64,000 nt of DNA, taken from positions 2,131,001-2,195,000 of the forward strand of contig NZ_CP050699.1 of the NCBI RefSeq assembly GCF_005116675.2. Direction: 5' to 3'. The stretch is from Desulfosediminicola ganghwensis (GTDB lineage: Bacteria > Desulfobacterota > Desulfobulbia > Desulfobulbales > Desulfocapsaceae). Below the pieces are notes generated by a model that searched no databases, was not told the origin of the DNA, and worked only from the letters and a program-made list of their open reading frames with translations. The translations under genes were made by a program, and so were the position numbers. Position 1 is the stretch's first letter, and the number at the start of each line of letters is the position of its first letter. Below, in pieces: positions 20,372 through 56,675 of this stretch.

Positions 20372-20447
<76 letters not shown>

Positions 20448-23982: not shown

Positions 23983-24882
23983 TTACGCTGTATTTTGCTC
24001 TTTGAAAAATTGTTGTTCATAAGCGGCAGGTGAAAGGTAATCCAATCTCTTCTGACGCCTTTGGCGGTTATAGAAAATTTCGATGTACTCCGTGATTTCC
24101 TTTATCGCTTCATTTCTGGTGACGTAGCGACGATGGTGGACCAACTCATTTTTCAATACTCCCCAGAAGCTTTCGATGGGTGCGTTATCATAACAGTTAC
24201 CGCGACGACTCATAGAAGCGCGCATACCGAATTGGTCGAGCAATCTTCGATACTCCAGAGCACAATACTGACTGCCTCGGTCCGAATGATGGATCAAGCC
24301 TTCGGGTGGGCGCTTGGAAGCAACAGCACGAAAAAGTGACTGGCTGACCAAGTTCTTTGTCATTCGCTCACCCATTGCATAGCCGACGATCTCCCCTGTG
24401 AACAGATCTTTATGACCAGCGAGATACAACCAGCCTTCGGCAGTGGAAATGTACGTCAGATCAGTAACCCAGACCTGGTTGGGGGCCTTGGCTTCAAACT
24501 TCTGTTCAAGAACATTCTCGGCAATCGGCAAGCGATGATTTGAGTTTGTAGTTGCCTTGAACTTTTTCACCTGTTTGCAGCGAATACCGTGTTCCTTGCG
24601 GATGCGTTTGATCCTATGCACTCCTACATGAACACCATGCTCGGCCAGGTCACTCTGCAAGCGTTCAGGGCCATACGTTTCTCTATTTCTTTTGTGAGCC
24701 GCTTTGATCTCGATGACAAGCCGTGTCTCTTCTTGCCGTCGTGGTGATTCCGGGCGTTTCAGCCAAGCATAATAGCCGCTTGAAGAAACAGCTAGAACCT
24801 GGCAGAGCAAAGGCACTGCATACTCAGGTCGAAGCTCTGTAATTATCGCGTACTGTGCAGCGACTCCTTGGCAAAGTACGCG
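23983..24882 (-). pseudogene. IS3-family transposase orfB, separated from orfA
   Basis: The frame encodes the rve-type DDE catalytic domain: HTH_21 region RNRETYGPERLQSDLAEHGV, first Asp in VWVTDLTYIST, second in LIHHSDRGSQYCA, and Glu in NAPIESFWGVLKNEL, ending in the usual YNRQRRQKRLDYLSPAAYE. The catalytic domain is complete from about 24816. The upstream part that would be joined to orfA by programmed frameshifting is cut by the IS30 insertion at 24887, so the fusion transposase cannot be made. Confidence 0.9.
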
Positions 24883-24886
24883 GTTG

Positions 24887-26112
24887 TAGATTCAATAGGT
24901 CAATGCAACACTCTATAATGAGATTTTATAGGGAGGTGGTTGTGATGACCCAAAAGAGACGAAACGAATTCTCATCGATAGAAATGGATGAAGTCTGGAG
25001 AAGATGGCGTAAAGGAGAGTCTTTCAGTGAGATTGGACGAGCTGTAGGCAGGGCCCCCGGTACAATCCATGGTATGCTTCAGCTGCATGGTGGAATCTCA
25101 CCACCAAAAAGAAAGCGATCCATGCATGTCCTTACCTTATTCGAGCGGGAGGAGATATCTCGTGGAATAGCTGCTAGCCATTCCATTAGGTGTATTGCTC
25201 GTCACCTAGGGCGACCTGCTTCAACGGTGAGCAGAGAAATTAAACGGCATGGAGGATCTCAGGCATATCGAGCTGTCAACGCTGATAAAAATGCATGGGA
25301 CAGTGCTCGGCGTCCGAAACCATGTAAGCTTGGGCAATCTCCAACATTGCTCGAGGTTATTACTGATAAAATCTTACTTCAGTGGTCACCAGAACAGATA
25401 TCTGGCTGGTTAAAAAAGACGTATCCAGCTGATGATTCGATGCAAATTTCTCATGAAACCATCTATCGGAGTTTATTCATTCAGGCGCGTGGAGTGTTGA
25501 AAAAAGAGTTGCTCAAGCACCTTCGAACGGGTCGAAAGATGCGCCAATCAAAGCAATTCAATACAAAAGGAGTCACCCGTGGTCAAATCATTGATGGACT
25601 CTCCATCCGTGAACGTCCAAAGGAAGTTGAAGATAGATCCGTGCCTGGCCATTGGGAAGGTGATTTAATAGCTGGCTCCCATAACACTCATATCGCAACA
25701 TTAGTTGAACGTCAGAGTAGATTTACAATGCTTGTGAAGGTGTTTGGTAAAGATACCCTGTCTGTCACTAATGCAATACGCAAGCAGATACTACATTTGC
25801 CTGAAAATCTCAGGAAAACAATCACCTGGGATCGAGGAATGGAATTGGCATATCACAAGAAATTCACGGTGGCTACTGGTGTTAAAGTCTATTTTTGCGA
25901 CCCTCAAAGCCCCTGGCAGCGTGGCACAAATGAGAATACGAATAGTTTAATAAGACAATATTTACCTAAAAAGACAGATTTATCTGTGTATTCTCAAACA
26001 GAGTTAAATGAGTTAGCATTACGTTTAAATCAACGACCACGAAAAACGCTAGGTTACTTGACACCGGCTGATATGTTTTGGGGGAGTGTTGCATTGACCT
26101 ATTGAATCCAGA
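24887..26112 (+). mobile_element. IS30-family insertion sequence, apparently intact
   Basis: 1226 bp with perfect 25-bp inverted repeats at 24889-24913 and 26084-26108 (GATTCAATAGGTCAATGCAA and onward). It is flanked by GTTG at 24883-24886 and 26113-26116, consistent with the short target duplication of this family. Its single transposase gene is complete. Confidence 0.9.
24945..26105 (+). CDS. IS30-family transposase, intact
   Basis: About 386 residues from the ATG at 24945, which follows GGGAGGT; the open frame extends back to 24855 but that part lies across the element end. The N-terminal helix-turn-helix has HLGRPASTVSREIKRHGG. The catalytic core shows VPGHWEGDLIAG (Asp), TWDRGMELAYH (Asp) and SPWQRGTNENTNSLIRQYLP (Glu), ending in RLNQRPRKTLGYLTPADMFW. 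All three acidic residues are present, so it is probably active. It differs from the decayed IS30-type scraps elsewhere in the window. Confidence 0.95.
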   Translation: MTQKRRNEFSSIEMDEVWRRWRKGESFSEIGRAVGRAPGTIHGMLQLHGGISPPKRKRSMHVLTLFEREEISRGIAASHSIRCIARHLGRPASTVSREIKRHGGSQAYRAVNADKNAWDSARRPKPCKLGQSPTLLEVITDKILLQWSPEQISGWLKKTYPADDSMQISHETIYRSLFIQARGVLKKELLKHLRTGRKMRQSKQFNTKGVTRGQIIDGLSIRERPKEVEDRSVPGHWEGDLIAGSHNTHIATLVERQSRFTMLVKVFGKDTLSVTNAIRKQILHLPENLRKTITWDRGMELAYHKKFTVATGVKVYFCDPQSPWQRGTNENTNSLIRQYLPKKTDLSVYSQTELNELALRLNQRPRKTLGYLTPADMFWGSVALTY

Positions 26113-26387
26113 GTTGCTTTTTTTAGGATGTCGCGCTCCTGCTTGACCTGAGCCAGCTCTCGTTTAACACGATTGAGTTCTAACTCGATTTCGGTTAATG
26201 GCTGTTGGTGGCCACCTATATTGCCTAGTTTACCGGCCCTGAATGCTCTTACCCAATTCTCCAGGGTAGATTTTGGCAATTTGAGCTGACGTGATGCCTC
26301 GTAGGCAGAAAGACCGCCTTCAACCACTAATTTTGCGGCTTCATCACGAAATTCTTTTGAGTAGCGGCCGTTAGTTCGTTTGCTCAT
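26113..26387 (-). pseudogene. IS3-family transposase orfA, cut at its 3' end
   Basis: The first about 92 residues of orfA: helix-turn-helix KEFRDEAAKLVVEGGLSAYE with RQLKLPKSTLENWV, then the leucine zipper LTEIELELNRVKRELAQVKQ ending ERDILKKAT. After that the frame enters the IS30 element and ends at 26049. GGAGGT precedes the ATG at 26387. Confidence 0.9.
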
Positions 26388-26504: not shown

Positions 26505-26951
26505 TTATGGATTGATAACCATCACAGGGCATTGGGCCTTCCTGAGAACTTGTTCAGAAATACTGCCGAGAACAATTTTTTTCTGTGTCTGTTTGCCATG
26601 GGTCCCCATAATTATCAAGTCACCCTTGTTGGTCTCTGCGCAAGCCATAATTTCACTGACAATATCACCAGCTACCACACTAATCTGATAATTCTGGCAT
26701 TCACTGGCAGCATCTTTGATGAAATTTTGAATAGCCTGTTCTGCATGAAGGATTTTCTTTGCCATGTAATCTTCATACGAAAATTTCATTATTGCCATCT
26801 CCCACATGGATGCGGACTCGACAAATTCAACACAATGGAAAAAGCAGATTTCGCTTTCATGTCTGTTCGCCATGAATATTGCGAGGTCAACGATATTTCT
26901 CGTATGTTCGACAAGATCAACCGGAACAATGATATGTTTGATTTCTTTCAT
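26505..26951 (-). CDS. Universal stress protein (UspA family)
   Basis: A 148-residue Usp domain. The N-terminal strand is KHIIVPVDLVEHTRNIVDLA, and the ATP-binding loop is MGTHGKQTQKKIVLGSISEQ (G-2x-G-9x-G-S), followed by VLRKAQCPVMVI, so it is of the nucleotide-binding class. It lies 51 bases after hflC in the same direction and is the last gene of the sigma-54 operon that begins at 29835. A C-terminal remnant of a close paralogue is at 55527-55755. Confidence 0.93.
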   Translation of the reverse strand: MKEIKHIIVPVDLVEHTRNIVDLAIFMANRHESEICFFHCVEFVESASMWEMAIMKFSYEDYMAKKILHAEQAIQNFIKDAASECQNYQISVVAGDIVSEIMACAETNKGDLIIMGTHGKQTQKKIVLGSISEQVLRKAQCPVMVINP

Positions 26952-27002: not shown

Positions 27003-27965
27003 CTACGGCACTTTCTCAGGGTTGGCCTTTTTGATGTACTGATAAAAATCACTCTCTGTAGTGAGGATGAGTACGGAGTTTTGGTTCGGTTTCTCCCTGT
27101 AGCTTTCAAGGGTCTGCAGGAAACCATAGAAATCCGGATTGTTATTATAAGCCGTACCATATATTGCAGTGGCACGCGCATCGGCGGCTCCCTGAATTTC
27201 CTGAACCCGGCGATAGGCCGTTGAGCGGATCTGACGCAGCTCTTTTTCCATCTCACCGAGAATCTCGGCACTTCGCCCCTCACCTTCCGAACGAAACTGG
27301 GCGGCGATGCGTTTACGTTCTGAGATCATCCGCTCGTACACTTTCTCCCGAACACTTTCCACATAGTCGAGACGCTTTATCCGCACATCAACCAGCTCAA
27401 TACCATATTGCGGGATGATCCTTCGTGCCTCGGTCAGTATCGTTCGGGTTATTTCCTCCCTTCCTCGTGCGATTTCCCTTTTAAGTTCCTCTTCTCTCTC
27501 CTTGGGAATATCCTGCAGATCCTCCTGCTCCGGGAGCTCCCACGAAGCTGAACGGACAAGCTCAACGAGTTCGCTGCTTGACACCTGATCCCGCACTACG
27601 GAGTCGAGGATATCGTTTAGACGGGACTGGGCACCTTCCTCACTGGCGACATTCTCCAGAAACTTTCTGGCATCCGCTATCCGCCATCGGGCAGTAGTGT
27701 CAACCCAGATGAATTCCCGTCCCTTGGTAGGAATCTGGTTCGGATCACCATCCCAGATGAGCAATCGTTTTTCAAACCGCCGGACCTCCTGCACAAAGGG
27801 GAGTTTCATATGCAGACCAGCCTCTGTTATCGGCTCGCCCACCGGTCGACCAAACTGCACGACAATTGCCTGCTGCCCCTCCTGAAGAGTATAGAAGACT
27901 CCGGATAGACCGAAAAATGCCAGCAATACGACTACAACAGCAATTACTCGTAATTGAATGTTCAT
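27003..27965 (-). CDS. hflC: HflC-like SPFH/band 7 membrane protein
   Basis: 320 residues: one N-terminal membrane anchor (VIAVVVVLLAFFGLSGVFYT), then the SPFH domain (EGQQAIVVQFGRPVGEPITE, VDTTARWRIADARKFLENV) and a coiled-coil C-terminal part with RSEGEGRSAEILGEMEKELR. HflC pairs with HflK to form a cage that surrounds FtsH in the membrane and regulates its proteolysis. It starts two bases after hflK stops, so the two are translationally coupled. An ftsH gene lies in the neighbouring sigma-54 operon, which fits the known complex. Confidence 0.92.
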   Translation of the reverse strand: MNIQLRVIAVVVVLLAFFGLSGVFYTLQEGQQAIVVQFGRPVGEPITEAGLHMKLPFVQEVRRFEKRLLIWDGDPNQIPTKGREFIWVDTTARWRIADARKFLENVASEEGAQSRLNDILDSVVRDQVSSSELVELVRSASWELPEQEDLQDIPKEREEELKREIARGREEITRTILTEARRIIPQYGIELVDVRIKRLDYVESVREKVYERMISERKRIAAQFRSEGEGRSAEILGEMEKELRQIRSTAYRRVQEIQGAADARATAIYGTAYNNNPDFYGFLQTLESYREKPNQNSVLILTTESDFYQYIKKANPEKVP

Positions 27966-27967: not shown

Positions 27968-29008
27968 TTACTCTCCTCCGGCTGTTGCACCATCGACAGA
28001 CTTCAGCGGAAGCCAGGGAACCATCGCCTTCTGATCTGTGTCGACGATATAGAGCCCTTTCATCTCTGCCAGAAAGTCGGTCATTGTTTCGAGATAGAGT
28101 CGTCTGCGCGTAACCTGTGGTGCTTTCTGATATTCGGCCAGTATTGCAGTAAATCGGGTTGCCTCACCTTCTGCCCGGTTGATCCGCTCAAGAGCATAGC
28201 CCTCTGCTTCACTGATACTCTGGGTTGCAACACCCCGAGCTTTCGGGATTTCGCGATTGGCCCGCTCCTGAGCGATATTGATAGTCCGTTCCTTGTCCTG
28301 TCGTGATTCGTTCACTTCATTGAAGGCTGGTTTCACTCTGTCAGGGGGAGTTACATCCTGCAGTTCGACGGTAACCAGGCGTACACCGCTCTGGTAGCTT
28401 GTCAGGACTTTTTGAATCTCCACTTTGGCTTCACTGGCGACGGCGACACGACCGGTCGTCAGAACATCACTGCCAAGGCGATTGCCTACAGCCCTTCGCA
28501 TTATTGCCTCGGTGGTATCACGAATGGTCTTTGCTGTATTACGTACTTTGAACAGATAGAGTATTGGATCTTCAATGCGATACTGGATAATCCATTGCAC
28601 ATCTATCACATTGAGATCGCCGGTCAGCATCAGCGATTCCTCTACATGTGTCCCGCTTGGTGCATAGCGGGTTTTCATACCCGGCAAAGAGGACATTGTT
28701 CTGAAACCGAACTCCTCCTTCAAGACACGGGCTGTCGGCAATCGCCGGACCGTTTCAATGCTAAGCGGAAATTTAAAATGCAACCCAGGACTGGCCGTAC
28801 GTACAACCTTGCCAAACCGCTGCACAATTCCCGTCTCTTCCGGCTGCACTGTAAACCAGGAAGAGCCAAGAAGCACTACCACGAGGAGAACTGCGATAAA
28901 CAGAAGGCTCTCTTTAGGTTTGAAATTACCCAGCTTCAATTTAAAATTTTCCAGCACATCAAGGGCAGGTTTCAATGATTTTCGAATGTTATCTTCCTGT
29001 TCAGACAT
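27968..29008 (-). CDS. hflK: HflK-like SPFH/band 7 membrane protein
   Basis: 346 residues. A short cytoplasmic N-terminus is followed by one TM segment (SLLFIAVLLVVVLLGSSWFT), then the SPFH domain with QPEETGIVQRFGKVVRTASP and the HflK-type stretch VTPPDRVKPAFNEVNESRQD, and helices with RIN-RAEGEATRF. An AAGGAG site precedes the ATG. It is the larger partner of HflC. The two genes follow a 150-bp gap after the monooxygenase-like gene but remain on the same strand and probably the same transcript. Confidence 0.92.
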   Translation of the reverse strand: MSEQEDNIRKSLKPALDVLENFKLKLGNFKPKESLLFIAVLLVVVLLGSSWFTVQPEETGIVQRFGKVVRTASPGLHFKFPLSIETVRRLPTARVLKEEFGFRTMSSLPGMKTRYAPSGTHVEESLMLTGDLNVIDVQWIIQYRIEDPILYLFKVRNTAKTIRDTTEAIMRRAVGNRLGSDVLTTGRVAVASEAKVEIQKVLTSYQSGVRLVTVELQDVTPPDRVKPAFNEVNESRQDKERTINIAQERANREIPKARGVATQSISEAEGYALERINRAEGEATRFTAILAEYQKAPQVTRRRLYLETMTDFLAEMKGLYIVDTDQKAMVPWLPLKSVDGATAGGE

Positions 29009-29158: not shown

Positions 29159-29488
29159 CTACCCCTTCGCTTTCCGGGCCGCATAGACGGCCTCGATGCC
29201 CTCAATGCTGGAAACATTAAGGATCTGGATTTCTATTGGCTTTAGCAGCAGGCTTTGTGTGCCAAGCAATACACTGAACGTATCAGAATTCAGATGATCG
29301 TTCATATGACCACGGGTTTCCCACTCAGAAATCAGATTGAAAATATTGTTATTTCCGATATCTGTGTATATTCCGTAGCTGAGCAGCCCATTGTCGTTTG
29401 CAGGTGCTTCAACCATCGCAAGGAGCGTTTGTAAAACTTCTCTTTTCTTCTCTGGTAAAGTGTTCAGTATAGTCCTTATGATGATCAT
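29159..29488 (-). CDS. Antibiotic biosynthesis monooxygenase (ABM)-domain protein
   Basis: About 109 residues from the ATG at 29488, preceded by GAGGTG; six more residues are possible from 29506. The ferredoxin-like ABM fold is suggested by IIIRTILNTLPEKKREVLQT, NDNGLLSYGIYTD and FNLISEWETRGHMNDHLNSD. Members act as quinol or heme-type monooxygenases or as small stress proteins; the substrate is unknown. It is the second gene of the sigma-54 operon, 51 bases after the coiled-coil gene, among membrane-protease and stress genes. Confidence 0.75.
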   Translation of the reverse strand: MIIIRTILNTLPEKKREVLQTLLAMVEAPANDNGLLSYGIYTDIGNNNIFNLISEWETRGHMNDHLNSDTFSVLLGTQSLLLKPIEIQILNVSSIEGIEAVYAARKAKG

Positions 29489-29538
29489 AACTTGGGCACC
29501 TCGCATCCAGGTAAATCATGGAAAGTCATCCAGGTAGG

Positions 29539-29835
29539 TTACTGTTCCCCTTCGAAGGTTGAGACGGCATCCTGAAGCGAATCCTGCAGTGCACTCCAGG
29601 AATCCTCCACCCCTTTAACGATTTGCTCCGGTACACTGCCCTGACTCAGATTCAATTCGTGCAACCGCTGCTTGGCCTCTTCAATTCTCTGTTCAAGCAC
29701 CTCGATATGGATGCTATCTGTGGCCCGAACGGCAATGGCTTTGCTTTCAATCTTCGCTTTGAGCTCAGCAAGTTTGATTTGTGCCAGCTCCACGTCCTTT
29801 TCCAGCTTTGTCTGTAAAAGTTTTTTATCACTCAT
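29539..29835 (-). CDS. 98-aa coiled-coil stress-type protein, first gene of a sigma-54 operon
   Basis: 98 residues, nearly all predicted helix: KLEKDVELAQIKLAELKAKI, then VLEQRIEEAKQRLHELN, then VEDSWSALQDSLQDAVSTF. It lacks Cys and membrane spans. It resembles small helical stress-response proteins such as the Sll1863-like group, but I am not certain of that link. AGGAGGAG precedes the ATG. A sigma-54 promoter lies about 70 bases upstream. A paralogue with one in-frame stop is at 55741-56037, behind an equivalent promoter, so the promoter-gene pair is a conserved unit. Confidence 0.75.
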   Translation of the reverse strand: MSDKKLLQTKLEKDVELAQIKLAELKAKIESKAIAVRATDSIHIEVLEQRIEEAKQRLHELNLSQGSVPEQIVKGVEDSWSALQDSLQDAVSTFEGEQ

Positions 29836-29905: not shown

Positions 29906-29922
29906 AAGCAATCCCCATGCCA
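29906..29922 (-). promoter_or_regulatory. Sigma-54 (-24/-12) promoter, operon 1
   Basis: The minus strand reads TGGCATGGGGATTGCTT, matching TGGCAC-N5-TTGCW at all but one of the key positions. It drives the coiled-coil gene, ABM gene, hflK, hflC and uspA. The palindromic activator site lies about 118 bases upstream. Confidence 0.9.
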
Positions 29923-30021
29923 CGGCCCCACAACCGGTCAACAAGGTTTCATGGTCATGATTTTATGTAAATTGTTCCCATCATGTATGTTCTCAACAGG
30001 TGTCTCAACCCACAGTCGCGC

Positions 30022-30053
30022 GGTCATATATGGCCAAGTGGTCAAATACGACC
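30022..30053. promoter_or_regulatory. Palindromic enhancer (UAS), operon 1
   Basis: Imperfect palindrome with outer arms GGTCATATATGGCCA and TGGTCAAATACGACC around a 2-base centre. Its sequence and spacing match the sites at 34104-34137 and 56313-56352. It is followed by CATAGCCGGTTTG, which is also shared with the site at 34104. Confidence 0.85.
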
Positions 30054-30284
30054 TGTGCATAGCCGGTTTGTATTCGCGCAGCTCTAACTTGAGAGGATGT
30101 TCTCGTCTTTTTCGTGCGATGAATCAGGAAAGAATTATGGAAGAATAGACAGATACGCAGAGAAAGTGGTTTTATGACAAGATGAATTGCGAAACAATGG
30201 AGAATATCGAGAAGTGGAATGCTTAACCGGGTCTTGGTGAAGAGGATTACAAGCATTTGAAGATGTGTTCTCGGACAACCTCCT

Positions 30285-30427
30285 AGGAGGCTGTCCGAGA
30301 ATAGGAAATTTGCTCAAACTCGAGAAGTTTTCAGAAAATAAGCACAGCCATATATTTAATATTGCGAGCATTATTTTCTGAAAAATCCGAAGATTTTGGG
30401 TAAAGAGCCATCCTCGGACAACCTCCT
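30285..30427. repeat. MITE-like element inserted at the end of cbpM
   Basis: 143 bp bounded by inverted repeats AGGAGGCTGTCCGAG (30285-30299) and, inverted, CTCGGACAACCTCCT (30413-30427), one mismatch apart. It has no coding capacity. A further copy of the right end lies at 30269-30284, back to back with the left end. A worn relative is at 7939-8070. The cbpM stop codon overlaps its last two bases. Confidence 0.8.
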
Positions 30428-30740
30428 AGCGCCTCTCTTTTCGAATGTGTTGCAGCTGCGCCTCTAAATCAGATATCTGTTCAAGAAGGTCCATCACAAG
30501 ACCGCATCCCATCAGATTGAGTCCCAGATCGTTTTTCAATCTCTCAATTTTTTGAACCCTTGCGACAATAGTATCCTCAAAAAGCGGTTCAGGGCTTTCA
30601 ACCGCTGGATCAATCAGTCCATAGACGATATATCTTCTTAATACTGCAGGATGCTTTCCAACCAGCCGGCCAAGTTCATCTAATGTTATAAGTCTCGTTT
30701 CGAGGTGTTGCGCATATATTATTAGATCATGTCTTTTCAT
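30426..30740 (-). CDS. cbpM: CbpM-like chaperone modulator (MerR-type HTH)
   Basis: About 104 residues from the ATG at 30740; the frame extends to 30779 but that would overlap cbpA further. A winged-helix start (ISLDELG-type LITLDELGRLVGKHPAVLRR) and a C-terminal helix (VMDLLEQISDLEAQLQHIRK) match CbpM, the partner that regulates the DnaJ-like protein CbpA. It overlaps the cbpA end by 14 bases, as usual for the pair. The C-terminal codons abut a MITE-like insertion that supplies part of the stop codon; a few original residues may have been lost. Confidence 0.85.
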   Translation of the reverse strand: MKRHDLIIYAQHLETRLITLDELGRLVGKHPAVLRRYIVYGLIDPAVESPEPLFEDTIVARVQKIERLKNDLGLNLMGCGLVMDLLEQISDLEAQLQHIRKERR

Positions 30741-31740
30741 ACGGTTTCGCCCTTTGCGTCTTTTCCTCTCTCGGGTCAAAGTCGGAAATATTCAACAGTT
30801 CCTCAAACAACTGCTTTTCTTTGTCAGTCAGAGATCGGGGTATTCGAATATCTATTTCAACGATGATATTTCCGGCGGAAGCTCCTTTCTTTGGTATGCC
30901 AAATCCTTTTAACCGAAATTGTTTTCCATTTTGAGTACCGGCCGGCAAGGAGAGCATTACTGTACCATTGACAGTCTTTACAGGTATTTTCGCACCAAGA
31001 GCAGCCTCCCATGGAGACACCGAAACCGATGTATGCAGATTATGACCGACAACATGGAACCTCTGGTCTGGAGAGATGGATATCCTGAGCAGCAAATCGC
31101 CGTCTTTACCACTTCCGATCCCTTTTTCTCCCTGACCGGCCAGCCGAATAATGGAACCGTTTGTTACCCCTTTAGGTATTTTGACCTGGAGTTTTTTTTC
31201 CTTGGGTATCACCTTCCCATCAACACTTGCCTCGAAAACCTGAAATGTAATGATACGTGTTGCGCCGGAAAACACCTCAGGTAATTCAACTTCTATTTCA
31301 GCCTCATGAGAGCTTCCCGCAGCACTGAAGAAATTTTCATACCTCCCCCCTGACGATTCACGGGTAGCACGATCGCCGAAAAGATTGTTGAAGAACTCGC
31401 TAAAATCGTCAGTTCCTTGAAAACCATTCGCATTGTTTGAATGCTGATACGATTGGTAACGGAATTTTCCGTCATTTGCTGCTCCCCTGTTCCATCCTGG
31501 TGGAGGCTGCTGACCTGCTTTCTCCGAATCTTTGCCATACATGTCATAGAGTTTTCGCTTCTCAGGGTCGTTTAACACCTCTTTTGCTTCATTAATCTCT
31601 CTGAATTTTAATTCAGCATCATGGTCTTTACTGACATCAGGATGGTATTTACGGGCAAGCTTCCTGTAGGCTCGGTGTATGTCATCTTTCCCCGCGTCCT
31701 TGGAAACACCAAGAATTTTATAATAATCTTTGTATTTCAT
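30727..31740 (-). CDS. cbpA: CbpA/DnaJ-type co-chaperone
   Basis: 337 residues. The J domain at about 1-68 has the HPD motif in LARKYHPDVSKD; a Gly/Phe-rich linker follows (residues about 75-130), then two C-terminal substrate-binding domains (ITFQVFEASVDGKVIPKEKK; LHTSVSVSPWEAALGAKIPV; LKGFGIPKKGASAGNIIVEI). There is no Cys-rich zinc domain, which makes it CbpA/DjlA-type rather than DnaJ proper. It would deliver substrates to a DnaK encoded elsewhere. It lies 194 bases after ftsH and overlaps cbpM, forming a protein-quality-control operon. Confidence 0.93.
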   Translation of the reverse strand: MKYKDYYKILGVSKDAGKDDIHRAYRKLARKYHPDVSKDHDAELKFREINEAKEVLNDPEKRKLYDMYGKDSEKAGQQPPPGWNRGAANDGKFRYQSYQHSNNANGFQGTDDFSEFFNNLFGDRATRESSGGRYENFFSAAGSSHEAEIEVELPEVFSGATRIITFQVFEASVDGKVIPKEKKLQVKIPKGVTNGSIIRLAGQGEKGIGSGKDGDLLLRISISPDQRFHVVGHNLHTSVSVSPWEAALGAKIPVKTVNGTVMLSLPAGTQNGKQFRLKGFGIPKKGASAGNIIVEIDIRIPRSLTDKEKQLFEELLNISDFDPREEKTQRAKPYEKT

Positions 31741-31934
31741 AAACGTATCATGATCTGTTGTTGCCCGTGACTTTTGGTCCTCTATAGGGCCGAACCTGTT
31801 TCTTTCAATATCTCCAATAGATTATGTTTTCGTAACACGTCAGCTCCATGGCTCGGATGTACTCAGGAAAGAGCCTGATATACGAGGCGAAGTGTCTTTA
31901 GCTGCACTCTATTCCAATTGTCAGTAAGTGTTGC

Positions 31935-33836
31935 TTATACACTCGATTCGTCTTTTGTTTTTTGTTGTTTCAGTATCCTTCTGAGTTCATCTCCTGATAT
32001 GCTTTCTTTTACTGAGAGGAGTTCAGCCAGTTCATCCAGAACGTCTCGTCGTTCCGAGAGAATTGCCTGTACCCTCTTGTGAGCTTCATCGATCAATTTA
32101 CTAATTTCACTATCAATTTCGGCACTTTTGGCTTCACTGTAGTTTTTTGCAGACGGAAATCCTTCTGGCATAAACATTACCTGCCGTGGCTGTTCATAGC
32201 AGACCAATCCAAGACGATCACTCATGCCATACTGAGTGACCATGGTGCGGGCAATATCTGAGGCCCGCTGTAAATCATTCTGGGCACCGGTCGATATTTC
32301 GTTAAAAACAAGCTCTTCTGCTACTCTGCCGCCAAGGAGAATAGCAAGGCGATCAAGCAACTCAGAACGGGTCATGAGATAACGGTCTTCGGTTGGCTGC
32401 TGCTGGGTGTATCCAAGGGCCGATATTCCACGCGGAATAATGGAAATCTTATGCACCGGGTCAGCATGTTCAACAGATTCCGCGACTATCGCGTGTCCTG
32501 ACTCATGGTAGGTGACAATCTCCTTCTCCTGGGCACTCATAACCCGGTTCTTCTTTTGCAGACCGGCGACGACCCGTTCGATTGCTTCATCAAAATCAAT
32601 CAATTCCACCGTTTCTTTCTCATTCCGGGCTGCAAGCAGCGCAGCTTCATTGATGATGTTGGCCAGATCCGCGCCAACAAATCCGGGAGTTCGTCCTGCG
32701 AGCTTGCCAAGGTCTACATCTGGGCTCAGCACCACATTCTTTGTATGAATTTCCAGAATAGCCTTGCGACCGTTAATATCTGGTCGGTCAACCAATACCT
32801 GACGGTCAAAACGGCCAGGTCGCAGCAGGGCGGGGTCAAGAATCTCGGGACGGTTGGTAGCAGCCATGATGATGACGCCCTTGTTGGTCTCAAACCCATC
32901 CATCTCAACCAGTAGTTGATTGAGTGTCTGTTCCCGCTCGTCATGTCCGCCCATGGTATTCACACCACGGGCTTTGCCAATTGCATCGAGTTCATCAATA
33001 AAAATAATGCAGGGAGCCTGAGAAGCTGCCTGGGAGAAAAGATCGCGAACGCGAGCCGCACCTACGCCAACAAACATCTCAACAAATTCAGAACCGCTGA
33101 TGCTAAAAAAAGGCACTTTCGCTTCCCCGGCCACAGCCCGGGCCAGGAGTGTTTTCCCTGTGCCCGGCGGACCGACCAGAAGCACACCTTTAGGTATCCT
33201 GCCGCCTAGTTTTTGTGATTTTTCCGGAGAGCTTAAGAACTCAACAACTTCTTCAAGCTCTTCCTGCGCTTCATCAATCCCTGCCACATCAGCAAAGGAT
33301 ACATTGGTATCACTCTCTGCAAAAATCTTGGCCTTATTCTTGGAAAAAGACATAACCCCAGCCCCAGGCCCCATCTTTTTCATGGCGTAGAAATAGAAGA
33401 GAAAAAAAATGCCGAGCGGCAGCAGCCAGGAAAGGATAGTGCTCAGCAATCTATTCTGGTATTTACCGGAATAGCTGACTTTGCTGTCAGCGAGTTCCTT
33501 CACTAATCCTGGATCATCAACCCGAATGGTGGAAATCTGTCGATCCGGGACTCCTTTAAGCGTCGCCGTAATATATTCAGGACCGATGATCAAGTTGTCC
33601 AGCGTGCCTTCAGTAAGATGCTGCTTGAACTGACTGTAAGGAATTGTCTCAACTTTATCGGAAAAGAAAAATGGCTGCAGATAAGAGAATAGTAATATGG
33701 CGATAAACACATACCAGATATTCAATCGTTGCTTTGGGAATTTACCATTCTCGTCTTTGGGGGAGTGGTTAAGTCCTAACATTGAGCGAAGCCTGTCTCC
33801 TGAGTTCTCATTTTCGTTTTTGTTTGAATCGGACAT
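31935..33836 (-). CDS. ftsH: FtsH ATP-dependent zinc metalloprotease
   Basis: 633 residues. Two TM helices ([18 protein letters not shown] near residue 42 and [18 protein letters not shown] near 135) flank a periplasmic domain. The AAA module has Walker A GPPGTGKT (near 222), Walker [12 protein letters not shown] and the second region of homology [20 protein letters not shown]. The protease domain has the zinc motif HESGH (near 447) and a downstream acidic ligand region. It degrades misfolded membrane proteins, and with HflKC nearby the whole complex is encoded here. It is the first gene behind the second sigma-54 promoter. A housekeeping ftsH is expected elsewhere in the genome. Confidence 0.96.
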
Positions 33837-33976
33837 CTTTCCACCACCTCTTCTATCGGGCTTACTCCTGGCCCGGATTTCTCATCAATTCAGGCGGTGT
33901 AAGGTTCGAAGTTTATGGCATTGAACAGGGAGCACTATCCACATGATGCAGAGCAGGTGTACCTGCAATCTCATTT

Positions 33977-33993
33977 AAGCAATCCCTGTGCCA
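33977..33993 (-). promoter_or_regulatory. Sigma-54 (-24/-12) promoter, operon 2 (ftsH-cbpA-cbpM)
   Basis: The minus strand reads TGGCACAGGGATTGCTT, a full match to TGGCAC-N5-TTGCT. It sits about 140 bases before the ftsH start. The flanking TTAAAT is shared with the operon 1 promoter. Confidence 0.93.
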
Positions 33994-34103
33994 GGATCCT
34001 TTTACCTGCTATCGACGCGTCTTATCCTCCTGCCTTGATTCAGAATATCCACTCATGCAGGTTGTCTTAAGTACATTCAAATATTCACAACGGTAAAGTC
34101 CTG

Positions 34104-34137
34104 AGGTCATATATGACCAAGTGGTCATATACGACCT
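34104..34137. promoter_or_regulatory. Palindromic enhancer (UAS), operon 2
   Basis: A 34-bp palindrome with arms AGGTCATATATGACCA and TGGTCATATACGACCT around AG, one mismatch per half. It lies about 130 bases upstream of the -24 element. It also lies upstream of the divergent phospholipase gene, but I found no convincing -24/-12 on the plus strand. Confidence 0.9.
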
Positions 34138-34433: not shown

Positions 34434-35621
34434 ATGAAAGAAATATATTCACAGAACCACATAACACTGCTGCACAACGGCGAAGCCCTTTTTACTTCCA
34501 TCGAAGCTTCACTGGATGAAGCGGTGCATGAAATTTATATCCTGAGTTATATTTTTAAAAATGATCACATTGGACGACGCATTGCGGAAGCCCTCAGGAG
34601 GGCGGCTTTACGCGGGGTAAGAACGCATCTCCTGATCGATGGATTCGGCTCGAAGAATTTGCCGCACACCATGATTGACTACATGAAAGCTGGAGGGATC
34701 ATGGTGCGAAAGTTCCGACCTAAGATATCACCCTGGACTTTTCGGCGTAGAAGACTTCGGCGCCTGCACAGGAAAATAGTGGTGGTTGATCTAAAAATTG
34801 CCTTTGTCGGGGGCATGAATATTCAAGACCAGAAGATAACGTCTGATCAGGCTGAATCTTTTTATGACTTTGCCGTGAGCGTAGAGGGGCCGCTGGTTAG
34901 ATCAATTTACTCGTCATGCGTACAGGTCTGGACGCATGTAACCAGAAACCGTTTACGTTTTGCCCTGAGTCGGAAGAGGAAAAGTGACCTTCCAAGACCG
35001 CAATCACCTGGCACTATGCGCGTAGCGTTTCTCGAAAGGGATAACTTCCACCATCGTCGTGACATTGAAAACGCCTACCTGCAGGCAATTAATCAAGCCG
35101 ACACCGAAATCATCATAGCCAATGCCTATTTTTTACCTGGTATGAATTTTCGTCATGCCCTCTGTGCTGCTGCCAGGCGTGGTGTCCGCGTGGTTTTACT
35201 GTTGCAGGGAAAGATGGATCATCGTTTGTTTCATTTCGCAGCAGAGGCGCTCTATGGAAGTTTTCTTGATGCGGGAATTGAGATCTATGAGCACCACAAA
35301 GCTTTTCTGCATGCCAAAGTCGCTGTGATCGATTCATATTGGGCGACCTTCGGATCCTCAAATCTTGATCCTTTCAGTCTGCTGCTTTCCCTTGAAGCGA
35401 ATGTCGTTGTTCTGAACCACACCTTTGCCACAGCATTGAAGGCCAGTCTGGACCAGGCTATCAGCAATGAAGCACGACGGATATGGGGAAATGCATGGAA
35501 ATTACAGCCACTAGCGTTGCGGTTGGTGAGCTGGTTCAGTTACGGGTTGGTCAGGTTTATGGTCGGTATAGCAGGGTATGCCCCCAATAACTGGCCTGAG
35601 AGGATTGCCCGGAGATTGTAG
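34434..35621 (+). CDS. Phospholipase D-family protein, cardiolipin synthase-like
   Basis: 395 residues with two HKD motifs: HRKIVVVDLKIAFVGGMN (near residue 118) and HAKVAVIDSYWATFGSSNLD (near residue 285). This spacing is typical of ClsB-type cardiolipin synthases, which condense phospholipids. Long N-terminal membrane helices are absent, as in ClsB. The gene diverges from ftsH and shares the 600-bp regulatory region with its enhancer. Remodelling of the membrane alongside FtsH-HflKC would fit a membrane-stress island. Confidence 0.88.
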   Translation: MKEIYSQNHITLLHNGEALFTSIEASLDEAVHEIYILSYIFKNDHIGRRIAEALRRAALRGVRTHLLIDGFGSKNLPHTMIDYMKAGGIMVRKFRPKISPWTFRRRRLRRLHRKIVVVDLKIAFVGGMNIQDQKITSDQAESFYDFAVSVEGPLVRSIYSSCVQVWTHVTRNRLRFALSRKRKSDLPRPQSPGTMRVAFLERDNFHHRRDIENAYLQAINQADTEIIIANAYFLPGMNFRHALCAAARRGVRVVLLLQGKMDHRLFHFAAEALYGSFLDAGIEIYEHHKAFLHAKVAVIDSYWATFGSSNLDPFSLLLSLEANVVVLNHTFATALKASLDQAISNEARRIWGNAWKLQPLALRLVSWFSYGLVRFMVGIAGYAPNNWPERIARRL

Positions 35622-36596: not shown

Positions 36597-38078
36597 CTAC
36601 ACTTTACGGATATTGAGCTTACGCATTCGGGCGCGCAAGGTACTGCGTTCAAGTCCAAGAATCTCGGCTGCACTGTTTTTTCCGCTTACTTTCCAGTGGG
36701 TCTGTTCGAGCACCCGCGTAATATAGTCTCGTTCGACCGCTGCAAGTGTCTGCAATTCATCCGAACCATGTCGTGAAGCATGCTTAAGCTCATCAAAGAT
36801 GTTTAGCTTGGATCCGGAAGAGCTGATCACCGCCCGCTCAAGAACATTTTCAAGTTCACGGACGTTTCCCGGCCAGGGATAGTTCTGCAGACTGGTCATG
36901 ACGGTGGTCGGTATTATATCGATAGCCTTGCCTAATCGTTTGGAAATTTTCTGAACGAAGTATTTCACCAGAAGTGGAATGTCATCCAGGCGATCTCTAA
37001 GCGGAGGCATCGTTATGGGGAAAATATTCAATCTATACCAGAGATCTTCCCTGAATCGCCCTTCTTCAACCTCTTTTTCGAGATTACGATTAGTAGCGGC
37101 AATAATTCTGACATCAACACTCTGGGTTTGAGAACTGCCCAACCTCTCAAATCTGCCACTCTCTATCACCTGCAACAGTTTTGATTGTAACTCCAAAGGC
37201 AATTCTCCAATTTCATCAAGAAAGAGGGTCGTGCCGTTGGCAAGCTCAAATCGTCCTATCCTTCTAGCGTTGGCTCCCGTGAATGCACCTTTTTCATGTC
37301 CGAACAACTCACTCTCAACCAGGTTTGCAGGGAGAGCTGCACAATTCATCTTAACCATTGCGCGCCCCTTACGTTGACTCAAGTCGTGTATAGCCCGGGC
37401 AACAAGCTCTTTACCTGTCCCCGTTTCCCCCAAAATCAGGACAGTTGTATCAGAGTGTGCAATCTGCTCAATTTTATAAAAAACATATTTGATCTCATTG
37501 CTTTGGCCAATAATATTGTCGTAGTTGAGTTCGAGTTTTATCTCTTCAAGCAGGTACGCTCGCTCAGCCTCAAGCTGATCCTTGAGCTTTTTTATCTCTT
37601 CCAGAGCATCTTCGGCAATGCGTCTGCTTTCCTCTGCATTTTTCCGGGAAATCCGCAGTTCAGCAGTGCGTTGCTTTACAAGTTCATCAAGATTTCGTTT
37701 GCTGTATTCCCGATCTGTCACATCCTCAATTGCCAGAAGAATCAACTGATTTTCTTCTTTTTCGCTTGCAATGCGCCTGGCATTCAGATGCATGATCTTG
37801 AAACCGATGTCAGTAAAGGTATGTTCAACTTCAAAATCATTGAATTCTGAATTCTGGGGGAGGATCGTCTCCAGCAGCTCTCTCAGCCCGGGAATATCCC
37901 ATTGACCATTGCCAAGATTATAGATTATCACGCCTTCGGTCTGATGAGGCTCAATAGCAAAAAAACGGTAAAATGAGCTGTTAGCCTTGACGACCCTGAA
38001 CTCACTATCAAGGGCGACCAGAGGCTCACGAACGGCCCCAAGGATATCATCAAAAATGAGTAGAAAATTTTTCTTCAT
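36597..38078 (-). CDS. Sigma-54-dependent activator with PAS domain; candidate regulator of the stress island
   Basis: 493 residues. An N-terminal PAS domain (residues about 10-125), a coiled coil ([20 protein letters not shown]) and the AAA+ activator domain with Walker A GETGTGKE (near 218), the sigma-54 contact loop KGAFTGA, Walker [13 protein letters not shown] and [10 protein letters not shown]. The C-terminal Fis-type helix-turn-helix is [20 protein letters not shown]. No receiver domain is present, so control is by ligand or redox sensing through PAS. It is the only specific activator inside the island, and three promoters here have a common palindrome at enhancer distance, so it is the likely binder. 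GAFTGA is intact. Confidence 0.93.
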
Positions 38079-52277: not shown

Positions 52278-52837
52278 CGAGTATACAATGAGCTTCCTTT
52301 GGTTTTATTAAGGAGTACGTTGATTACCCGACATAGGCCTGGGATTATATGACGCTAATTCATCACTATAGCTCTCCAGAACGCCTATGCAATGTCGGCT
52401 AATCAGGTTCCGTCTTAATAGTATGCAGTAGTTGCCTATATGGGGTATCAAATTCAAGATTTGTTCTGGCAATAACAGGCCATTGACAGATCCATTATTA
52501 AGAGATGTTTCCTGATGCTCTTCAGGTGGACGGAGGTGGAAAGCCGATCCCAGGCTTTTGCGGATCAGAACCGGCGATGCACAGTAGCCATTTCAACTTC
52601 AAGATTCGGTGGAATCTTCAGTCATTCGGAATGGCTATATTAATCGCGTTATTGGATGGAGCATCTTGTCCCAGCACAAGCCACTTGGAACAGGGGTAAT
52701 AACGATGTCAGTACAGCCATTATCGGCCACTATTTAACCGATAATTTAGGCATCCTTAGCATGCCCACAGTATGTCATATTGAAGCAAGCAATGCTGCAC
52801 CCAGAATGGCCCCAGTATTCAACTTCTTATGGAAGCA
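52278..52837. other. Intergenic with a wide inverted repeat
   Basis: TGATTACCCGACAT (52321-52334) and ATGTCGGCTAATCA (52392-52405) are complementary with one mismatch, about 57 bases apart; they may be ends of a small element. Two short frames (52505-52699, 52656-52892) are not convincing genes. Confidence 0.45.
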
Positions 52838-55363
52838 TCATTCCCGCCAGAGAATAAAATTGATTTCTACAGGCACTGAGGCATCCGCATGATATGGTAT
52901 CACTCTCGGAGTGTAGTCTTGTGCAGATCGCCCTTTTGATACAACTGCATGATATTGATAGCCGATAACAGACCCTGATAGCCTCTCACCACGATCCATG
53001 GTTATGCGGACGGGATTCGAATCAGGTGACAGCGGGTCAGCATACAATTCAACCCTAACTGCTGACGGATGCACCTCACCCAGATAGACTTCAACGAGAA
53101 ACAGGTTTCGCACGGAAGACTCATCGACAGTGCATTGCCCAAAACGCAGCTGCTGCCAGTGACTAAGAAGAGTAAGATGCCACTCATCCAGGGCGGTTGC
53201 AAGACTACCATTGTCTGCGGCCCTCCGTTGATACGCCGCTGCTGCCGGCACATAGTAATCGCTGGTGTACTCTCGCACCATCCGATTGCAGGAAAATAGT
53301 GGCGTCAGTCGTGCCATGCTATGCCGCATTCTGGTCACCCATGCCGTGGGAATGCCGCGTTCGTCGCGGGTGTAGAATGCCGGTACCACTTCCTCCTCCA
53401 GCAGCATATACAATTCTTCAGCCTCTTTGGCATCCCAGGCGGGATCGTGATCGTGCTCCTTTCCATCACCAAGTGACCAACCTACTCCAGGTTCATAGGC
53501 CTCGGCCCACCAGCCATCAAGTTCGGACAAGTTGAGCCCTCCGTTAACCAGCACCTTCATTCCACTGGTACCGCAGGCTTCCCAGGGCCGGCGAGGTGTA
53601 TTCAACCACAGATCAACACCCTGGACCAGTTCAGCAGCAAGGCCCATATCATAATCCTCAAGGAAAACTCCATGCTCACGCACTTCCGGTCGGCGCAAAT
53701 ACTCACTCCATTCGCGGACCAGCCTTTTTCCTTCTTCATCCTGAGGATGTGCCTTACCGGCAATAATAAGCTGAACAGGATGCTGTGGGTGCGTGAGTAG
53801 GTGGGTCAATCGTTCCGGGTCGGTAAGTAGCAACCCTGGTCTCTTGTAACTGGCAAAGCGGCGAGCGAAGCCGATTGTCAGCACATGCGGATCAAGCGTC
53901 TCACGGCATTGCCGAAGATCTTTTTCAGACAGGCGGCAAGCTTCCTGCTGGCAAATTAGACGACGGCGCACCGCTGTAATGAGCGGTTGGCGTGCCTCAT
54001 TGCGCATAGTCCACAATTTTTCATCGTCAACGTTTTTCAAGGCATACTCGACGGTTTCCAGGGTGCTGAACCAGCTGCCCTTGCCGCACCGTTCAGTCCA
54101 GAGCGTATCGGCAGCCGCAGAATCCCACGATGGCACGTGCACACCGTTTGTGACATGTCCTATGGGGATTTCCTGTTGGGGCCAACGGGGAAAGAGGGGA
54201 CGAAAAATTTGACGGCTCACCTCTCCGTGCAAGCGACTGACGCCGTTTGTCCTACCGCAGCCCCGGAGTGCGAGATATGCCATGTTAAAGGAATCATGGT
54301 TCTCGGCCTCCCGTGAACATCCCAACGAGAGTAGAGCTTCCATGGATATGCCGAGCGTCTTCGTATATTCGGAAAAATATTGCGTCATAAGCCCTGGTGG
54401 GAAACGATCAAAACCTGCTGCTACGGGCGTATGGGTTGTAAATATATTGCCAGCCCTGGTTGCCTGAAAAGAAATACTGAATGAACGATCATGCTGATCC
54501 ATAAACCGGCGGGCTCGCTCCAGCACGACGAAAGCGGCATGCCCTTCATTGAGATGACATACCGAAGGTGATATCTTCAGTGCGTCCAGCAACCGCCAGC
54601 CGCCGATACCCAAAACGATTTCCTGTCGCAGGCGCATTTCGGTTCCGCCACCATACAATTCACCGGTGATGCCACGGTCGCCCGGCGCATTGAGCAGATC
54701 GTTACTGTCGAGCAAATACAGAGGAACTCTTCCAACCTGCGCCAGCCAGCCACGTAAATGCAGTGTCCGGCCGGGCAGTTCGACACTGACCCGTAGCCAT
54801 TCGCCATCCGGGCCCTGGAGAGGGAGCACCGGCAGCATGGTGGGATTGTTGAACGGAAAAAATGCCAGCTGTACCCCATTGGTGTCAAGCGCCTGACGAA
54901 AATACCCCTGCTGATAGAGCAGTCCAATACCCACCACGGGAATACCCAGATCACTTGCAGTCTTGAGGAAATCCCCTGCGAGCACACCCAAACCGCCCGA
55001 ATAGATGGGCAGTGCATCACTTAAACCGAATTCCATGCTGAAGTAGACCACAGATCCCAGGCGATCACTTCCATACCTCTCATCATACCATGTGGGCTGT
55101 CTCATATACGCCTGTCGATACGCCAGCTGGTTCCGAAGTTCCTCCATAAAGGCTGGATCGGCAGCCAACGTTTCCAACCGCATTCTCGAAACACTTTCCA
55201 GAATCAGCCATGGATCTTCCGTACCTTCCCAGATCTCCGGATCAATTGCCCGCCATAGAACATCGGCACAATGATTCCAGTTCCATCGCAGATCCAGCGC
55301 CAAGTCCGTCAGCCCTTTAAGCGAAGCTGGTAGAGACCGGGGCAGGTATCGTTCGGGGTTCAT
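52838..55363 (-). CDS. glgP: Alpha-glucan (glycogen) phosphorylase, short DUF3417 type
   Basis: 841 residues. N-terminal DUF3417-type domain (LPASLKGLTDLALDLRWNWN), then the phosphorylase core: VVYFSMEFGLSDALPIYSGG, LNEGHAAFVVLERARRFM, and the PLP-lysine region GTSGMKVLVNGGLNLSELDG (Lys near residue 605). It releases glucose-1-phosphate from alpha-glucans without using ATP. It lies to the left of the decayed stress operon in the same direction, with 163 bp between, so a shared transcript is possible. Composition is richer in G+C than the surrounding spacers. Confidence 0.95.
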   Translation of the reverse strand: MNPERYLPRSLPASLKGLTDLALDLRWNWNHCADVLWRAIDPEIWEGTEDPWLILESVSRMRLETLAADPAFMEELRNQLAYRQAYMRQPTWYDERYGSDRLGSVVYFSMEFGLSDALPIYSGGLGVLAGDFLKTASDLGIPVVGIGLLYQQGYFRQALDTNGVQLAFFPFNNPTMLPVLPLQGPDGEWLRVSVELPGRTLHLRGWLAQVGRVPLYLLDSNDLLNAPGDRGITGELYGGGTEMRLRQEIVLGIGGWRLLDALKISPSVCHLNEGHAAFVVLERARRFMDQHDRSFSISFQATRAGNIFTTHTPVAAGFDRFPPGLMTQYFSEYTKTLGISMEALLSLGCSREAENHDSFNMAYLALRGCGRTNGVSRLHGEVSRQIFRPLFPRWPQQEIPIGHVTNGVHVPSWDSAAADTLWTERCGKGSWFSTLETVEYALKNVDDEKLWTMRNEARQPLITAVRRRLICQQEACRLSEKDLRQCRETLDPHVLTIGFARRFASYKRPGLLLTDPERLTHLLTHPQHPVQLIIAGKAHPQDEEGKRLVREWSEYLRRPEVREHGVFLEDYDMGLAAELVQGVDLWLNTPRRPWEACGTSGMKVLVNGGLNLSELDGWWAEAYEPGVGWSLGDGKEHDHDPAWDAKEAEELYMLLEEEVVPAFYTRDERGIPTAWVTRMRHSMARLTPLFSCNRMVREYTSDYYVPAAAAYQRRAADNGSLATALDEWHLTLLSHWQQLRFGQCTVDESSVRNLFLVEVYLGEVHPSAVRVELYADPLSPDSNPVRITMDRGERLSGSVIGYQYHAVVSKGRSAQDYTPRVIPYHADASVPVEINFILWRE

Positions 55364-55526
55364 GGTCCGCCTCCTTCAGTCAGTTTGAATACTCCAGTTA
55401 TCATCTCATAGTCTTTCAAAAAGCTAGTTTTCAGTTTCTGGATCCGCATCCGTTTACGGTTAGCTGGATTACTTGTAGTTTGTCCTGAGTGACATTCAAG
55501 GCAGCTCTTGCTCTCTCAGCACTTGA

Positions 55527-55755
55527 CTACCTATATGGATTTATAACCAATACCGGGCATGGAGCCTTTCTGAGAAATTGTTCGGAGATACTGCCGAGAA
55601 CAATTTCACCCTGTGTCTGTTGGCCATGGGTCCCGACAATGATCATATCGGCCTTCTGGCTCTCTGCATGGGTGAGAATTTCACTGACAATATCACCAGC
55701 TACCACAATTATGTGATATTTTCGGCATTCACGGGCAGCATTAATGATGCCCTTC
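55527..55755 (-). pseudogene. C-terminal remnant of a UspA gene
   Basis: About 75 residues, from AARECRKYHIIVVAGDIVSE through the ATP loop VGTHGQQTQGEIVLGSISEQ to the stop. It matches the second half of the intact UspA at 26505. The N-terminal half is absent; upstream sequence is the 3' end of the coiled-coil gene copy. This is the scar of a deletion that removed ABM, hflK, hflC and half of uspA. Confidence 0.9.
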
Positions 55756-56037
55756 AAAAGTGGAGATGACATCTTGAAGGGAATCCTGCAATGCTTTCCA
55801 GGTATCCTCAACCCCTTCCATAATTTGCTCCGACACACTGTCCTGAGTCCGATTCAATTCGAGCAACCGCTGCTTTGCTTCTTCAATTCTCTGTTCCAGC
55901 AAATCAATACGTCCGACATTTTCGGATCAAACACTACCTGCTACGCTTTTGATGTTAGCTTTGAACTCAGCAAGTTTGACTTGTGCCAGTTCAACATCGT
56001 TTTTAAGCTTTTCCTGTAATTTTTTTTTATCACTCAT
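55741..56037 (-). pseudogene. Paralogue of the 98-aa coiled-coil gene with one in-frame TGA
   Basis: The frame from the ATG at 56037 reads MSDKKKLQEKLKNDVELAQV and onward to KSVAGSV, then TGA, then continues without shift as LLEQRIEEAKQRLLELNRTQ to DSLQDVISTFEGHH and TAA at 55741. Apart from the TGA it is full length and highly similar to the 29539-29835 gene. GAGGAG precedes the ATG and a sigma-54 promoter lies about 160 bases upstream. Truncation to 36 residues is expected unless the TGA is read through. Confidence 0.85.
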
Positions 56038-56198
56038 TGTATTCTCCTCAAATAAAGAAAGGTGAGACGATCGTATGCGTTCAGCAGCACCCCATCTTCG
56101 CACGATCAGGCTGTCGTGCAGAGGACTCATCTGAATACTCATGGCAGAACCTGTCTTCCACATGAGATGCAGCAGAAGTGTACCTATAATCTTAGTTC

Positions 56199-56214
56199 AG
56201 CAATTCCCATGCTA
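56199..56214 (-). promoter_or_regulatory. Sigma-54 (-24/-12) promoter, decayed operon
   Basis: The minus strand reads TAGCATGGGAATTGCT, keeping one of the two G of -24 and the invariant GC of -12. It is the third member of the set at 29906 and 33977; the loss of one G may weaken it. Confidence 0.75.
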
Positions 56215-56312
56215 AGTGCCCGATACCAGCTCTCTCTACACCCCATCACTCTGCATTTTTAGTATAATTCACTTATGCCGCCTCCTCTGAATGTGTGTCG
56301 TCACCCACAGGC

Positions 56313-56625: not shown

Positions 56626-56675
56626 AAAGCAAGTGCTTTTCCCAGGTCCTATTGATAGTTAGAATTCATTTCTTG

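Follow-up and report, generated by a model that had tools for sequence, protein, structure and literature searches.

In a stretch of 64,000 nucleotides from Desulfosediminicola ganghwensis (contig NZ_CP050699.1, positions 2,131,001 to 2,195,000; hereafter the window), two neighboring minus-strand operons are each preceded by a perfect sigma-54 promoter and, farther upstream, by a pair of palindromes forming a putative upstream activator sequence (UAS; Table 1). Operon 1 encodes a small protein, an ABM-domain protein, two Band_7 proteins that we take to be HflK and HflC, and a Usp-family protein, and operon 2 an ftsH-like protease, a DnaJ-type co-chaperone and a MerR_2 protein, the latter two presumably CbpA and CbpM. 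The architecture of these regions, the spacing of their elements, the co-occurrence of element and activator across genomes, the covariation of recognition helix and site, and the content of the predicted targets make it likely that both operons belong to a sigma-54 regulon run by a PAS-type activator encoded in the same window, and that this regulon is wider in related Desulfobacterales.

The initial annotation placed sigma-54 promoters before these operons. Both display the -24 GG and the -12 GC with 10-nt spacing, and they are the only perfect matches in the window. It also described a palindrome upstream of each promoter; these are present at both, but each is in fact a pair of 14-bp palindromes with the consensus GGTCATATATGACC and 18 bp between the centres. 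The distance of 120-130 bp that it reported depends on the point of reference: counted between the -24 box and the closer end of the pair, sets 1, 2 and 3 have gaps of 99, 111 and 102 bp, respectively, the 111-bp gap at the ftsH promoter being about one helical turn above the usual one. At set 3, which it had located at 56199/56313, the palindrome pair is intact but the -24 GG of the promoter is damaged. The genome has one Sigma54_DBD gene (rpoN) over the cut-off. With up to 3 mismatches the palindrome pattern matches the window 9 times against 0.54 expected, and none of 100 shuffles gets to 9. Sigma-54-like boxes with up to 2 mismatches are not enriched (41 versus 42.7 expected), and the case therefore rests on the distance between promoter and palindromes. 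This lack of enrichment would also suit a scenario in which the boxes are chance matches and the palindromes are targets of a repressor or nucleoid protein; paired palindromes could serve an ordinary dimeric regulator as its operator. What speaks against that scenario, and renders it highly improbable, is the spacing of promoters across a larger sample.

This sample consists of the window and 61 further loci (1.09 Mb). Its loci were selected because they contain either the element or the activator; the counts of elements and of adjacency given below are thus conditional on that selection, the promoter distance is not. It contains 125 non-overlapping palindrome pairs, as against 0 in the reversed sequences; an earlier and looser count gave 92 pairs with 1 reversed match. 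A sigma-54 promoter with up to 2 mismatches lies at 97-103 bp from 81 of the 125 pairs, compared with 24 and 32 of 20,000 random positions (approximately 0.1-0.2%). When all promoter distances between 60 and 160 bp are considered, 64 of 76 in a first set and 22 of 25 in a second set fall within 97-103 bp, and seven pairs have promoters on both sides at gaps of 96-112 bp (up to 3 mismatches). An alignment of the intervening DNA revealed a third conserved stretch between pair and promoter. The integration host factor (IHF) has a described consensus, WATCARNNNNTTR, and a described role between enhancer and promoter (passages in PMC7962754). Relative to the -24 box, the best match to this consensus starts at -41 or -40 for 48 of the 68 promoters and lies within -48 to -36 for 56 of them, whereas shuffles (n = 200) gave 20.5 on average and 32 at most. 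The putative IHF-like element of operon 1 draws its support from this recurring position rather than from the match alone.

The reading that is best supported by these comparisons is a sigma-54 promoter with an enhancer-bound activator, and the protein encoded at 36597-38078, which the initial annotation had already named as the regulator, stands as the best candidate for that activator by ortholog co-occurrence, by the adjacency of such activators to the element and by helix-site covariation. It matches Sigma54_activat and HTH_8 over the cut-offs and contains the GAFTGA motif. Its N-terminus gave three PAS-family matches, all slightly below their cut-offs, and a model of residues 1-160 with a predicted local distance difference test (pLDDT) score of 87.5 matches PAS/LOV structures. 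LOV domains need a cysteine; the first 130 residues lack one, and the protein was accordingly rejected as a LOV photosensor. No Response_reg match, which would point to a receiver domain, was found in the protein. Close orthologs (at least 548 bits) occur in 21 of 97 related genomes, the best match of the next genome having 475 bits, and the element is found in all 21 of these genomes compared to 5 of the other 76 (Fisher 7e-17). A second set of new genomes comprised all 17 element-positive ones and 24 of 143 negatives, hand-picked mostly from the same genera: the ortholog is present in 11 of the 17 at 548 bits, in one more at 540 bits and in another as a fragment cut by a contig end, versus 0 of the 24 negatives (best 483 bits), giving Fisher values of 4e-6, 8e-7 or 1e-7 depending on whether 11, 12 or 13 ortholog genomes are counted. 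Four of the 24 negatives have a site with a 4-nt spacer, which in three (G168, G169, G192) is beside a more distant activator.

In the sampled loci, a paired palindrome follows 19 of 38 such activator genes within 700 bp on the 3' side. Further, the type of the neighboring site follows the recognition helix, a rule that was noticed after the fact and in few cases: 1) activators with the helix (K/Q)RSTLRAK have GGCY-type palindromes beside the gene in 4/4 cases (variant pairs at L172 8925, L173 8071, L193 4551 and L040 914); 2) activators with RSTLRAR and a neighboring site have a GGT-type palindrome in 15 of 16. Such covariation is as expected if this activator clade binds these sites, and the GGCY sites with their RAK-helix activators apparently constitute an orthogonal sister circuit. 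Alternatively, a different enhancer-binding protein might bind the palindromes, the gene at 36597-38078 being merely linked to the island. At least 16 related activator loci are present in the genome, 16 of 77 candidates having been scored, and the gene itself has no adjoining element, the nearest (UAS 2) being ~2.5 kb away. Yet the next match listed from the same genome scores ~303 bits as opposed to 1073, and together with the 4/4 covariation and the 21/21 co-occurrence this makes another activator quite unlikely.

We propose that the PAS-type protein would respond to a signal, possibly a stress, and bind the two 14-bp palindromes via its Fis-type helix-turn-helix (HTH). At most such promoters an IHF-like protein may then bend the DNA ~40 bp upstream of the -24 box, such that the AAA+ ring positioned ~100 bp upstream (or 111 bp, approximately one helical turn further) could open the RNA polymerase-sigma-54 complex. 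In the window the predicted targets of this switch are ftsH-cbpA-cbpM and the operon encoding the coiled-coil, ABM, hflKC and usp products.

The initial annotation suggested looking for the motif in related genomes, and the element was indeed found there. The strict pattern occurs in 8 of the 97 genomes. When looser patterns were used, 21 genomes were positive with 3 nt between the palindromes and 15 with 4 nt (union 26; reversed 0 and 1). When 257 genomes of the class were scanned with the 3-nt-spacer pattern, 38 were positive, five of them in a second family, and the reversed pattern gave 0. The sites occur in clusters, examples being 594-644 kb on a contig of G059 and 2,767-2,795 kb in G001, where a single additional site lies at 3,588 kb. 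The D. ganghwensis genome itself has five copies (up to 3 mismatches), of which three lie in the window and the other two are copies of its third one. Among 80 named loci kept from at least 591 matches to the activator, only three have the element (reversed control 1); they encode its closest named relatives, with 68-73% identity, and are recorded as Desulfosarcina sp. (73%) and two Desulfobacteraceae metagenome genomes (72% and 68%), so that within these 80 loci a reach into other phyla was not borne out.

The genes of relatives were predicted with a simple caller of our own, which yielded 98 composites, 75 of them with a called downstream gene, and 130 of 170 regulon proteins (short ones, a few of great length and the fragments downstream of the third set being left aside) were compared against Pfam along with 84 of 98 control proteins. 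The 130 regulon proteins include BON 17 times, ABM 5, Band_7 4, YflT, Transgly_assoc and XFP 3 each, and M41 and DnaJ_C 2 each. Of these families only ABM (2) is among the 25 families shown for the controls; BON is not, which implies that at most two of the 84 controls have it. Genes behind the element in relatives encode BON (OsmY-like), YflT, Transgly_assoc and DUF2254 proteins, phosphoketolase, phosphoglucomutase, glycogen phosphorylase, trehalose synthase, MCRA, GGDEF and CheB/CheR-PAS proteins, and the activators themselves, some of these target genes sitting several genes into predicted operons. Counterparts of the window genes also recur: the protein cluster of the first gene of operon 1 (c1) is found again behind the element at other loci, G001 has an ABM and two Band_7 genes together behind it with a radical-SAM gene in between, and in G020 ftsH lies behind it between a DUF1207 and a PLD-domain gene. 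The ftsH-dnaJ pairing is not repeated in the G020 operon, which lacks DnaJ. A PLD-domain gene (34434-35621, opposite strand) also adjoins ftsH in the window, the one of the G020 operon being at L177 13273-14442. Unexpectedly for a stress regulon, 4 of the 130 proteins match DsrD, the dissimilatory sulfite reductase D family.

The regulons of RpoS, SigB and EcfG contain BON/OsmY, YflT, Transgly_assoc and Usp proteins and the enzymes of trehalose and glycogen metabolism. With these families taken as typical of stress regulons, the regulon of the relatives has such content in comparison to the control proteins, and the predicted targets look like a general-stress set. The regulon of protein quality control perceived in the initial annotation is supported for the ftsH and hflKC operons, but in relatives it is wider and includes many stress-type genes. 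As the same switch precedes so many of these in related Desulfobacterales, it is probable that the regulon covers some of the functions that fall to RpoS, SigB or EcfG in other bacteria. An RpoS over the cut-off is absent from all 97 genomes; SigB and EcfG were not searched for. Going further, we lean slightly towards the view that 1) in part of the Desulfobacterales the general stress response is under sigma-54 instead of an RpoS/SigB/EcfG-type factor; 2) an activator clade with differing N-termini reads one module composed of the paired palindrome, a bend near -40 and a promoter at 100 bp; and 3) sister activators evolved a GGCY in place of a GGTY site together with two changes in the recognition helix, giving rise to natural insulated enhancer circuits.

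A genuine sigma-54 regulon might instead serve an envelope or membrane stress response. Membrane or envelope proteins are frequent among the targets (FtsH, Band_7, DUF2254, Transgly_assoc, OEP, HlyD, ShlB/POTRA and an AI-2E transporter), and sigma-54 phage-shock and envelope-stress regulons are among those listed for Desulfovibrio vulgaris in passages of PMC4641369. The targets also include phosphoketolase, trehalose synthase, glycogen phosphorylase, phosphoglucomutase, DnaJ, MCRA and YflT, whose functions lie outside the envelope, and we therefore regard a response confined to the envelope as possible but doubtful. Classical heat-shock control of the island genes, by sigma-32 or by HrcA and its operator CIRCE (controlling inverted repeat of chaperone expression), with sigma-54 in a minor role, appears unlikely. 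It is prompted by ftsH, dnaJ and hsp20 being classical heat-shock genes. The window has 0 CIRCE matches at up to 3 mismatches, which led us to discard HrcA/CIRCE; sigma-32 promoters were not searched for.

Several observations weigh against a sigma-54 general-stress regulon run by this activator. 1) Regarding the activator, the 548-bit threshold was picked after the gap between 548 and 475 bits had been seen, and in the second set it was lowered to 540 for a single genome; the five genomes of the first set that have the element without a close ortholog have one or two sites each, one of these being a variant beside the genome's own paralog; 4 of the 17 element-positive genomes of the second set (G193, G198, G206, G167) lack the ortholog; and G172, one of the 24 negatives, has a GGT-type site with neither an ortholog nor any activator found. 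The missing adjacency of the window's own activator gene, mentioned above, belongs here as well, as does locus L073, in which a GGCC-like site lies beside a RAR activator. 2) Regarding the element, 44 of the 125 pairs have no promoter (up to 2 mismatches) at 97-103 bp, and the reversed controls are not always empty, with 1 match each in the looser pair count, the scan of named genomes and the 4-nt-spacer scan. 3) The best IHF-like matches of the promoters at 33978 (at -47, with 2 mismatches) and 56199 (at -63) are off the usual place, so that the ftsH promoter departs from the position rule, its best match not being at -41 or -40; and of six HU/IHF-family matches in the genome none is over the himA cut-off, the best IHF-alpha-type match falling below it. 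4) The third set is probably impaired, and the genome's own regulon is small, three of its five sites being copies with a damaged -24, for which reason the general-stress reading leans on the relatives. 5) The Pfam counts include orthologs of one another, and a sigma-70 relative of ~450 residues, which is below the RpoS cut-off and, among the matches listed, occurs in addition to RpoD in many of the 97 genomes (e.g. G000:C1:3268626-3269321), could be a stress sigma factor.

Table 1. Genes and regulatory elements of the two operons, the candidate activator and the third set (window coordinates)
Feature	Position	Strand	Remarks
Usp-family protein	26505-26951	-	operon 1
HflC-like Band_7/SPFH protein	27003-27965	-	operon 1
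HflK-like Band_7/SPFH protein	27968-29008	-	operon 1
ABM-domain protein	29159-29506	-	operon 1; ABM also behind the element elsewhere
Small protein, no Pfam hit	29539-29835	-	first gene of operon 1; coiled coil according to the initial annotation
Sigma-54 promoter TGGCATGGGGATTGCT	29907-29922	-	0 mismatches; 99 bp from UAS 1
Putative IHF-like element	29950-29962	-	starts at -40 from the -24 box of 29907; 2 mismatches to WATCARNNNNTTR
UAS 1	30021-30054		two 14-bp palindromes, 18 bp centre to centre
MerR_2 protein, CbpM-like	30426-30779	-	operon 2
DnaJ/CbpA-type co-chaperone	30727-31740	-	operon 2; DnaJ and DnaJ_C domains
ftsH-like membrane AAA+ protease	31935-33836	-	operon 2; FtsH_ext, AAA, Peptidase_M41
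Sigma-54 promoter TGGCACAGGGATTGCT	33978-33993	-	0 mismatches; 111 bp from UAS 2; precedes ftsH
UAS 2	34104-34137		two 14-bp palindromes, GGTCATATATGACC-AAGT-GGTCATATACGACC, 18 bp centre to centre
Candidate activator	36597-38078	-	PAS-type N-terminus, sigma-54 AAA+ (GAFTGA), Fis-type HTH; recognition helix ERSTLRARM
Glycogen-phosphorylase-type gene	52838-55363	-	downstream of UAS 3
Truncated Usp frame	55527-55838		only the end of the domain; between UAS 3 and the phosphorylase-type gene
Short frame, no Pfam hit	55927-56163		between UAS 3 and the truncated Usp frame
Degenerate sigma-54 promoter TAGCATGGGAATTGCT	56199-56214	-	102 bp from UAS 3; -24 GG changed to AG
UAS 3	56316-56349		intact palindrome pair inside the triplicated segment

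The usp gene is probably the last gene of operon 1; the frame that follows it (26049-26387) encodes a transposase HTH and is probably not part of the operon. Together with this frame, two integrase-core (rve) genes lie beside operon 1 (23983-26387). Three tRNA-Phe (gaa) genes are found within 20 kb (1130-1205, 7026-7101 and 20372-20447), and are possibly traces of repeated island integration. A plasmid-borne heat-resistance island was considered as a source of the region and dismissed: none of 194 matching plasmid records covers 80% of the query, and 20 of them, among the matches listed, cover 20-22%, corresponding to the ftsH part. The window ftsH is one of two M41 genes in the genome. Between the two operons a further palindromic stretch, ctcggacaacctcctaggaggctgtccgag, was read by eye at 30272-30302, with a half copy at ~30413-30430. 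The third set lies in a segment of ~5,992 bp (window ~52508-58499) that is present in three copies in the genome, their main pieces being 99.8-99.9% identical. Having lost one G of the -24 GG, it was rejected as an intact promoter, and we take it to be a decayed, amplified copy. Also in the triplicated segment are an Hsp20 gene and a frame in which a histidine-phosphatase part is joined with an AAA-lid part; no transposase was found among the frames searched in it.

In the open-access literature we found no paper on the palindrome words and, among the papers listed, no description of this regulon or of a general-stress master circuit for the group. With its defined site and dozens of predicted promoters, the candidate activator makes the circuit accessible to gene deletion, to mutation of the motif and to measurement of the predicted gene set, and the near-constant spacing and helix-site covariation offer a natural system for how enhancer-binding proteins choose their DNA. 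The proposed circuit also suggests, in testable form, how bacteria that lack the usual stress sigma factor might cope. In the style of its gene content, the predicted regulon resembles those of RpoS, SigB and EcfG; those use a dedicated sigma-70-type factor, whereas here sigma-54 and an activator would take that place. Sigma-54 control of such genes, which the initial annotation called unusual, is so, but it is not unheard of, because there are precedents. The first is the sigma-54 activator DVU3305 of Desulfovibrio vulgaris, whose targets have UspA-type domains and include a Lon-domain regulator, and whose regulon, induced by heat, high pH and stationary phase, has been proposed to be part of the general stress response (PMC3333781, PMC4641369). 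This system shares with ours a sulfate-reducing host, a sigma-54 activator and stress-type targets, but DVU3305 is a two-component response regulator, unlike the protein at 36597-38078 with no receiver-domain match, and the relevant passages name four operons with no paired-palindrome architecture given. In the second, from Myxococcus xanthus, the NtrC-like activator HsfA of the HsfBA system directly controls the heat-shock protease gene lonD (PMC9109919), and is similar in that respect; it differs in being a phosphorelay response regulator, and its other targets named in passages of that report are secondary-metabolite genes. Third, sigma-54 promoters are predicted before IbpA, DnaJ and GroEL genes of Planctomycetota and Bacteroidota in a survey that finds activator genes to be most numerous in Desulfobacteria, with 69 in Desulfosarcina ovata (PMC12316311). 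These chaperone promoters belong to other phyla and were predicted by matrices, and the word "FtsH" is absent from the main text of the survey. Finally, the proposed order of enhancer, IHF bend and -24/-12 promoter is that of known IHF-assisted sigma-54 promoters, for which passages of PMC7962754 give an enhancer-to-promoter distance of usually 100-140 bp, and which include the sigma-54 promoters of the orp operons of D. vulgaris with IHF between enhancer and promoter (PMC3897727). The architecture described here differs from these in that its spacing is near-constant over dozens of promoters of varied function.

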